Shown here: positions 48,396-51,868 of the stretch, in pieces | Layout: each line of letters begins with the position of its first letter | Numbering within the stretch: position 1 is the stretch's first letter | From: Bacteroidales bacterium | GTDB taxonomy: Bacteria > Bacteroidota > Bacteroidia > Bacteroidales > UBA10428 | Reading direction: 5' to 3' | DNA: 64,000 nt | Assembly (NCBI GenBank): GCA_016928305.1 | Contig: JAFGKY010000073.1 | Location: 1-64,000, forward strand | Translations under genes and position numbers: made by a program | Notes under the pieces: generated by a model | Told to the model about the DNA's origin: nothing | What the model saw: the letters and a program-made list of their open reading frames with translations, nothing else | The model's database searches: none

Positions 48396-49424
48396 ATGAA
48401 AACTACCAATCCGCTTTTACTGTTTTTGATAAGCTTATTATTTGTCGCCTGTGAATCTGAAAACGATGATGGCACTGAAACGGGTGTTCCTGTATTACGA
48501 ACATCCATGGTCACCGGAGTAACTGCCGATACTGCTGTATGTGGTGGTAATATAACCGACGATGGCGGATCTCCGGTCATTGCCCGTGGAGTATGCTGGA
48601 GCAACTCGCCGAATCCGACAGTGGAAAATGACAAATCGGATGATGGTGAGGGTGCCGGACAGTTTAGAAGTTATATCACCGGATACAGTGCGGATACAAA
48701 ATACTATGTCAGGGCTTATGCCACGAACAGCACGGGAACAGGTTACGGTGATCAGGAAACATTCCGGTATATACCGCCAAATGGTACCTTTCTTGATCTG
48801 CGCGACAATCATGAATACAAGTGGGTAAGGATATGCAACAGGGTATGGATGGCCGAGAACCTGGCCTTTTTACCAGCTGTCAGTCCTCCAACAATAGAAT
48901 CATATACGGAACCAATCTTTTATGTCAATGAATATAATGACACCAGCGTCAGTGAAGCTATGGCTACAGAAAATTATAAAACCTACGGTGTATTATATAA
49001 CTGGCTGGCGGCAATGAATGGTTGTTCGGGCGATAGTACCAGCGCCAGTCCTGTCAAAGGAATATGTCCGGATGGCTGGCACATGCCGAAGGATGCAGAC
49101 TGGACGGAACTTGTTGATTCACTGGGAGGAGTCGAGGTTGCGGCCGACAAACTCAGAGAAAAAGGCATTGGTCACTGGCCAGTGCCAAATGCAGGAGCCA
49201 GCAATACTAGTGGTTTTACTGCTCTTCCGGGTGGTTTCCGTTCCGATAAAGGAAGGTTTGGTACACCGGGTTTTTCCTGTTATCTATGGTCTGCCTCTGA
49301 GAGTGGGGAAGGACAGGCCTGGTTCCGCAGTCTTTATATGATTGAGGACAATAAGTACAAAGTTAATCGCTATGAAGGTTATTATGGACTTGGTTTCAGT
49401 GTTCGGTGCATCAGGGATAATTGA
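48396..49424 (+). CDS. FISUMP-domain lipoprotein with N-terminal Fn3-like region
   Basis: Lipobox FVACESEN; KTYGVLYNWLAAMNG, CPDGWHMPKDADWTELVDSLGG, SGFTALPGGFR, FSVRCIRDN. Confidence 0.9.
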   Translation: MKTTNPLLLFLISLLFVACESENDDGTETGVPVLRTSMVTGVTADTAVCGGNITDDGGSPVIARGVCWSNSPNPTVENDKSDDGEGAGQFRSYITGYSADTKYYVRAYATNSTGTGYGDQETFRYIPPNGTFLDLRDNHEYKWVRICNRVWMAENLAFLPAVSPPTIESYTEPIFYVNEYNDTSVSEAMATENYKTYGVLYNWLAAMNGCSGDSTSASPVKGICPDGWHMPKDADWTELVDSLGGVEVAADKLREKGIGHWPVPNAGASNTSGFTALPGGFRSDKGRFGTPGFSCYLWSASESGEGQAWFRSLYMIEDNKYKVNRYEGYYGLGFSVRCIRDN

Positions 49425-49453: not shown

Positions 49454-50104
49454 ATGTTACAGGAAAAATATAGGAATCAATACCGCATTTCATCTGACAG
49501 GCATCCCGGTTGGGATTATACATCGTCCGGTGCCTATTTTATCACCATTTGCACAAAAAACAAGGAACATTATTTCGGGAAAATCAGAACAGGAACGGAA
49601 TGCCAGGATGGACGCAATGTAGAGACGCAAGATTTTGCGTCTCTACGTGTGTCACAAATAAATATTGTACATGTACATTATTCGGAAATAGGAAATATTG
49701 CATGTCAATATTGGTCCGAAATTCCCGATCATTTTCCGTTTGTTGAATTGGATGAATTCATTGTAATGCCAAATCATGTGCATGGAATTATATTATTTAA
49801 TGATATTATTTCACCTGTAGAGACGCAAGATTTTGCGTCTCTACGTTTGCCAGAACAATCATTGTTAGACAAAATTTGGCATACCAACAAATTCGGCCCC
49901 CAATCAAAAAACCTGGGTTCTGTGATCCGTGGGTTTAAATCGGCCGTAAAATCATACGCAACAAAAAACAATATCGATTTTGCCTGGCAGGGCAGGTATT
50001 ATGACAGGATCATAAGGGATGAAACGGAATACAACAGGATACAAAAATATATTTTGGACAACCCGGCGAATTGGGGGAATGATGAATATTTAAATTCAAT
50101 ATAA
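49454..50104 (+). CDS. REP-associated tyrosine transposase (RAYT, Y1_Tnp) with two in-frame REP copies
   Basis: HUH motif VMPNHVHGI, catalytic-Tyr region RYYDRIIRDETEYNRIQKYILDNP; VETQDFASLR occurs twice. Confidence 0.92.
   Translation: MLQEKYRNQYRISSDRHPGWDYTSSGAYFITICTKNKEHYFGKIRTGTECQDGRNVETQDFASLRVSQINIVHVHYSEIGNIACQYWSEIPDHFPFVELDEFIVMPNHVHGIILFNDIISPVETQDFASLRLPEQSLLDKIWHTNKFGPQSKNLGSVIRGFKSAVKSYATKNNIDFAWQGRYYDRIIRDETEYNRIQKYILDNPANWGNDEYLNSI
49619..49646. repeat. REP-like palindrome inside RAYT ORF, copy 1
   Basis: GTAGAGACGCAA-GATT-TTGCGTCTCTAC. Confidence 0.95.
49817..49844. repeat. REP-like palindrome inside RAYT ORF, copy 2 (identical to copy 1)
   Basis: GTAGAGACGCAA-GATT-TTGCGTCTCTAC. 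Confidence 0.95.
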
Positions 50105-50179: not shown

Positions 50180-51238
50180 TTGAATAATTTCATGTTTTTG
50201 TTATATTTGGTTGTAACGTTGTTTAAAAAAGATAAATCCATGTTTACAATCCTTACGAATAGCTTCGGGTGGTCTGCTAAATGCTACATTGCCCTGTTTA
50301 TTTTGTTCTTTGGCTTTTCACTTACCGCTCAGCAGGTCAATAATATCCACTATGAACAGAAAGATGATTTGATACACATATATTATGATCTGACGGGTGT
50401 AAAGGGCGTTGATAAATATACCGTCGAAGTATATTGCAGCGAGGATGGCGGGATCACCTGGGGATTGCCGTTGCAGCAGGTTACCGGTCATGCCGGTGAA
50501 CATCAGACGGCCGGAACCGATAAAACGATTATCTGGAACGCATTAGCCGAGAGAAATGTTACTGTGGACGATATTTTCATAAAAATCGTTGCAAAATGTG
50601 AAAGACCTATGTCGGGTGTCTTCACCGATCCCAGGGATGGTCATGTGTATGCATGGGTGAGATTGGGCGATCTGGCATGGATGACAGAGAATCTGTCGTA
50701 TTTACCGGCGGTACAACCTCCTATCATGGATTCCGGTACAGATCCCTGTTATTATGTATTGGGTTATAATGGGACAAATGTAAGTGCCGCAAAAGCCGAA
50801 GCTAATTATAAAACTTACGGGGTATTGTATAATTGGGCAGCAGCCGTGCAATCATGTCCTGCCGGATGGCATTTATCGAGCGATGATGAATGGAAACAAC
50901 TGGAGATGGCACTGGGCATGAGTCAGGCTCAGGCCGATGCAACAGGATGGCGTGGTACCGACGAAGGAGGGAAACTAAAAGTGGTCGGGTACAATTACTG
51001 GTTAAATCCGAACCTGGGTGCAACCAACAGCAGCGGGTTCAAAGCGCTTCCCGGAGGTTACCGCCACATGAAAGGTACCTTTACCGGTGATAAATACAAC
51101 GGTTTCTGGTGGACCTCCTCCGAAGTCGGTTCCGGAGCTGCACGGCGCCGCAGGCTGAGCAACAATAATATGGGCATAGCCCGTGAGATCTATTACAAAG
51201 GTTTCGGCTACAGCGTGCGTTGCGTTCAGGATCAATAA
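50180..51238 (+). CDS. FISUMP-domain secreted protein (second copy; start may be internal)
   Basis: KTYGVLYNWAAAVQSCPAGWHLSSDDEWKQLEMALG, SGFKALPGGYR, FSVRC-like YSVRCVQDQ. Confidence 0.9.
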   Translation: MNNFMFLLYLVVTLFKKDKSMFTILTNSFGWSAKCYIALFILFFGFSLTAQQVNNIHYEQKDDLIHIYYDLTGVKGVDKYTVEVYCSEDGGITWGLPLQQVTGHAGEHQTAGTDKTIIWNALAERNVTVDDIFIKIVAKCERPMSGVFTDPRDGHVYAWVRLGDLAWMTENLSYLPAVQPPIMDSGTDPCYYVLGYNGTNVSAAKAEANYKTYGVLYNWAAAVQSCPAGWHLSSDDEWKQLEMALGMSQAQADATGWRGTDEGGKLKVVGYNYWLNPNLGATNSSGFKALPGGYRHMKGTFTGDKYNGFWWTSSEVGSGAARRRRLSNNNMGIAREIYYKGFGYSVRCVQDQ

Positions 51239-51252
51239 TTATTAATTTCATG

Positions 51253-51279
51253 TGGAGACCGTTGCGTGCAACGTCTCTA
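51253..51279. repeat. REP-like palindrome (GAGAC/GTCTC foot)
   Basis: TGGAGACCGTTGC-GT-GCAACGTCTCTA. Confidence 0.75.
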
Positions 51280-51337
51280 AATAACAACATGTTATTTTAT
51301 CCGATGTTCCAGGCGAAATCATGCAATATGCAAATTA

Positions 51338-51868
51338 ATGACAGAGAAATACCAGCACAAATATCGTGTTGACACCTCCCGTGCCAAATGGTGGGATTAT
51401 AATAATGCCGGATTATACTATGTGACCATTTGTACCAACGACAGAATAAATTATTTTGGCGATATTGTGGATAATGAAATGGTATTATCCGATATTGGCA
51501 AAATGGCCGTCGAATATTGGTTAAGAATTCCGGTTCATTTGCCATTTGTTGAATTGGATGAATTCATTGTTATGCCCGATCATATCCATGGGATTATTGT
51601 AATTGAAAATACAATACCAACGAACCAATCCCCGCCAATCCTGAAAAATATACATATGACAACCATTTCCCCTAAATACGGATCGTTATCATCGGTGATC
51701 CGTTCCTATAAATCGGCCCTTACAAAATGGTGTAATTCGAATAATCTTTTCTTCGAATGGCAATCACGGTTTTATGACCGGATTATCAGGAATGATGATG
51801 AATTGAACAGGGTCAGACAATACATACGAAACAATCTGGTTCATTGGAAGGCAGACGATGCAATTTAA
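51338..51868 (+). CDS. REP-associated tyrosine transposase (RAYT, Y1_Tnp), second copy
   Basis: VMPDHIHGI HUH motif; RFYDRIIRNDDELNRVRQYIRNN. Confidence 0.92.
   Translation: MTEKYQHKYRVDTSRAKWWDYNNAGLYYVTICTNDRINYFGDIVDNEMVLSDIGKMAVEYWLRIPVHLPFVELDEFIVMPDHIHGIIVIENTIPTNQSPPILKNIHMTTISPKYGSLSSVIRSYKSALTKWCNSNNLFFEWQSRFYDRIIRNDDELNRVRQYIRNNLVHWKADDAI

Follow-up and report, generated by a model that had tools for sequence, protein, structure and literature searches.

A TnpAREP-like transposase gene of a Bacteroidales bacterium with two in-frame copies of its candidate cognate REP palindrome

In a 64,000-nucleotide stretch of a Bacteroidales contig (the window), a TnpAREP/Y1 transposase-like gene, designated as RAYT1 (49454–50104, forward strand, 216 aa), carries two identical copies of the 28-mer GTAGAGACGCAAGATTTTGCGTCTCTAC in the same frame and orientation inside its intact ORF. 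RAYT1 is most probably a subclass 2.4-type TnpAREP which hosts two cognate double-foot REPs in surface loops as a result of local insertion. On the sequence evidence, these REPs are in frame and near-intact, they cluster in RAYT genes, and REP type goes with RAYT lineage.

Copy 1 (49619–49646, forward strand) lies upstream of the HUH motif, and copy 2 is found at 49817–49844 on the same strand. Both encode VETQDFASLR, as the initial annotation had stated and as is read directly in the ORF 49454–50104. The positions and the identity of the two copies given there are exact, while the description as perfect hairpins is slightly overstated; 13 of 14 positions pair, and the central pair is G:T. The feet of both copies are GTAG...CTAC, which fits the double-foot pattern GT[AG]G...C[TC]AC. 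As single-stranded DNA, the REP shows a folding energy of −12.6 kcal/mol (z −8.8), and none is expected by chance (no occurrence in 100 shuffles, allowing up to 3 mismatches). The sequence common to both copies is only 31 bp (t + 28 + gt), and thus a larger tandem duplication is excluded. An Rfam search near the locus revealed tRNA only. The possibility of a decaying gene was not borne out: the frame is open, and the codon positions diverge like those of a constrained gene, with identities of 0.72, 0.79 and 0.54 to the nearest homologue at positions 1, 2 and 3.

REPs inside tnpAREP genes are not a novelty, because Quentin et al. 2018 (PMC6006769) already reported them in subclass 2.4. There, in-frame REPs are described as the hallmark of this subclass, as unique to it and as generally located between the HUH and Y motifs. 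Subclass 2.4, which corresponds to Bertels' group 4 as cited in that paper, is distributed in Cyanobacteria and Bacteroidetes, is reported to be abundant in the latter, and is characterized by double-foot GTAG...CTAC REPs and the motifs NH[IFV]H, WQ and YIxNNP. RAYT1 shares with it the NH[IFV]H and WQ motifs, a YIxNP-type Y motif, the double-foot REP and the in-frame REPs. NHVH and WQ match, and YILDNP has D at the first N of YIxNNP. Compared with the subclass as described there, RAYT1 is distinct in that a single gene holds two identical copies and that one of these precedes HUH. The kind of finding is already documented; the present analysis adds a survey and a type–lineage association, and parts of the survey may overlap with that of Quentin et al. 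No later report on in-gene REPs was found in the literature searched, where most subscription papers are absent.

In an alignment of 45 sequences, H110 and Y199 are invariant and H108 is conserved in at least 90%. The initial annotation placed both the HUH motif and the catalytic-Tyr region, assigned to YYDRII, outside the insertions. NHVH is present, and Y199 also lies outside both inserts. YYDRII is unlikely to contain the catalytic tyrosine, because the Y motif of subclass 2.4 is YIxNNP and Y199 is invariant; the second tyrosine of YYDRII is also replaced by His in the RAYT on contig C123. The catalytic tyrosine is probably Y199 of YILDNP. The NCBIfam model REP_Tyr_transpos matched RAYT1 partially (E 1.4e-11, 44.4 bits against a model cut-off of 80, a library cut-off not being itself a biological criterion), and a Pfam search with RAYT1 gave no hit at 0.001.

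The AF2 model of RAYT1 has a mean pLDDT of 79.8. The REP peptides (residues 56–65 and 122–131) fall in low-confidence loops, one between strands E42–46 and E72–76 and the other between strand E108–115 and helix H154–171, and the rest of the core is confident. This agrees with the earlier view of the REPs as insertions in variable loops. The best PDB match, both by profile and by fold of the AF2 model, was the REP-bound E. coli TnpAREP (4er8), which belongs to subclass 2.2 (PMC6006769). The similarity is only partial (TM 0.62 by target, 16% identity), and the extra loops of the RAYT1 model carry the REP peptides. RAYT1 is predicted to have an HUH fold resembling 4er8.

A survey of 153 loci yielded 126 distinct full-length RAYT ORFs, with 554 neighbouring ORFs as the control and a palindrome arm of at least 12 as the threshold. 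At least one palindrome was found inside the homology region of 73 of the 126 RAYTs versus 13 of the 554 neighbouring ORFs (Fisher p 1.4e-49, with trimming applied to the RAYTs but not to the control ORFs, and without correction for relatedness). Over whole ORFs, the density was 1.04 per kb in RAYTs versus 0.023 per kb in neighbouring ORFs, approximately 46-fold. By source, palindromes were present in 40 of 72 RAYTs from genome contigs and 31 of 51 from relatives. Within the genome-contig set, the count was 25 of 37 for the nearer half of the RAYTs and 15 of 35 for the farther half, and therefore some ascertainment effect is possible. RAYT2, the paralogue in the window, and 52 further homologues have no palindrome at this threshold, which indicates that the in-gene REP is dispensable.

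Most in-gene REPs (70 of 79) are located between HUH and the W/Y region, and 9 were not placed there. The HUH–Y loop was not longer in REP-bearing RAYTs (median 70, n = 37, versus 69, n = 31), under a motif rule that missed many. Among 68 classified in-gene REPs, two reading frames are used (50 and 18) and the frame giving TAG is not used at all. An ancestral non-palindromic peptide, the other explanation raised at first, is contradicted by these homologues, which hold palindromes in two frames with different peptides. Conservation of the REP segment at the peptide level was ruled out on the same ground.

Since 28 bp is not a multiple of three, the inserted unit must be longer, or the site must have been altered. 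A close pair with and without the insert, which would define this unit, was not found in the sample. Among 61 RAYT insertions, the flanks appear to be biased: the position after CTAC (+1) is never T, and the position before GTAG (−1) is A in only 3 of 61. The apparent bias suggests a 30-bp Y-GTAG...CTAC-R unit, which would account for the preserved frame. At four loci (L162, L151, L054 and L115), some in-gene REPs are centred in longer palindromes of 40–52 bp. One RAYT ORF (L036:498–1112) has a C-terminal REP-like peptide, VETHNYASLH, as well as an upstream REP.

On a tree of the 126 RAYTs built with the REP codons masked, a quick tree in which many inner branches are weak, the REP type required 36 changes versus 58.9 ± 1.6 after shuffling (300 shuffles, minimum 54). 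Among pairs of RAYTs that differ in insertion site or frame at a tree distance below 1.3, 83–100% share at least 18 of the 20 inner bases. The sharing of type despite another site or frame points to cognate matching, and not only to inheritance of one old insertion. Different REP types are also found in RAYTs of one genome, for example L116/L143, L115/L152 and L121/L163. By these comparisons, REP type tracks the RAYT lineage and not the host genome, which is an addition of the present survey. The association supports cognate matching and with it the original proposal that a RAYT hosts a substrate-like repeat.

In the 4.8-Mb host genome, the pattern AGAGACG-N{4,34}-CGTCTCT revealed 21 palindromes, every one of the form AGAGACG-N10-CGTCTCT with a 24-bp span. 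The exact 28-mer occurs three times, the third on C138. Every palindrome was compared with the surrounding ORFs of 90 aa or more, with gene calls judged by eye; only three palindromes are inside plausible genes, and all three are in RAYT genes. RAYT1 holds two, and the third is in the C123 RAYT, where the other open frame is read as RDAMHRVST. The remaining palindromes are outside long ORFs, at their edges, or in stop-to-stop frames judged to be non-genes. At L013, the palindrome lies in an open frame that continues into a 517-aa ORF, just before what by eye appears to be an acyl-CoA-dehydrogenase-like start.

Pattern searches, which miss diverged copies, were extended to 17 and 10 genomes of relatives. 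By coordinate comparison, every copy among the matches listed sits in a RAYT ORF in G014, G015, G062 and G075. In G068 and G051, REPs are abundant and, among the matches listed, mostly outside RAYTs. Random insertion of REPs that happen to be abundant in the genome, with no tie to the RAYT, is very improbable as an explanation. REPs are known inside unrelated genes of other species, and the Rickettsia palindromic elements and REPs inside genes (PMC3733652) are likewise short palindromes in protein-coding genes; however, the host genes are varied in those cases, whereas RAYT REPs are concentrated in the transposase gene itself. The enrichment in RAYT ORFs over neighbouring ORFs of the same loci, the genomes of low copy number in which all copies among the matches listed are in RAYTs, and the correspondence of REP type with RAYT clade all stand against a chance origin.

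It is possible, though not the favoured reading, that selection keeps the in-gene REP as a hairpin, either as a DNA operator, a regulatory site or a seed, beyond mere tolerance. In 30 non-overlapping pairs with the same aligned site, identity is 0.88 in the REP versus 0.66 in the rest of the gene, but this alignment was possibly drawn by the REP peptide itself; in a masked alignment with exact register (11 pairs), the values are 0.79 and 0.66. Changed stem positions in the 11 pairs are two-sided in 29 cases and one-sided in 6, versus 6.7 and 50.7 expected if the sides were independent, although a swap for another cognate REP yields the same two-sided pattern as compensation. The four genomes without a copy outside RAYT genes among the matches listed are in line with selection, but the pattern searches overlook diverged copies, many RAYTs have no REP, and decayed copies occur, mostly with foot mismatches. 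A more specific and rather doubtful version is that the in-gene REP serves as a RAYT-specific seed maintained by selection at the level of the element. An intact cognate REP would thereby be kept in the coding sequence, a transferred RAYT would always bring its substrate, and the in-gene REP would report the specificity of each RAYT.

Autoregulation of expression by mRNA hairpins in the RAYT transcript, suggested in the initial annotation, is unlikely. Around copy 1, the RNA forms a strong fold (−30.4 kcal/mol, z −5.1), but any inserted palindrome would fold. Constraint at the mRNA level would favour G:U mismatches, and it is unsupported because the stem mismatches on the coding strand (G:T 11, A:C 13) show no such bias, in small numbers.

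Under the preferred reading of local insertion, the enzyme or a relative would insert cognate REPs locally, both into its own gene and close to it. Insertions would survive only if they were in frame and in tolerant loops, and the gene would then hold a linked seed in the form of its own substrate. Where a locus has an in-gene REP, the copies that lie outside the RAYT and any other long ORF are at a median distance of 53 bp from the RAYT. Self-targeting by RAYT1 of its own in-gene REPs is plausible, and cleavage or mobilisation of an in-gene REP by RAYT1 is a putative activity. Should the in-gene repeat prove to be the cognate substrate, RAYT specificity could be read directly from sequence alone, and RAYTs could be paired with REP families in genomes which hold several of each.

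RAYT2 (51338–51868, forward strand) is a paralogue 44% identical to RAYT1. It is above the Pfam Y1_Tnp cut-off (24 versus 23) and below the NCBIfam cut-off. Its alignment with RAYT1 agrees with the earlier remark that it lacks both REP peptides; RAYT1 is 25 residues longer at the first site, and the REP accounts for only ten of these. Upstream of RAYT2, a degenerate REP-like palindrome of the TTGC type, GGAGACCGTTGCGTGCAACGTCTCTA, was read directly from the sequence at 51254–51281 (forward strand, ends approximate), and a TTGC-type palindrome is also present at C21. Two Fib_succ_major-domain genes (48396–49424 and 50180–51238) alternate with the RAYTs, and this gene–RAYT–gene–RAYT order may represent a duplicated unit. 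Among the surveyed loci, two N6_Mtase/HsdM-like ORFs contain in-frame REPs, two in L116:850–2337 and one in L160:2–1660, and both loci are RAYT-bearing.
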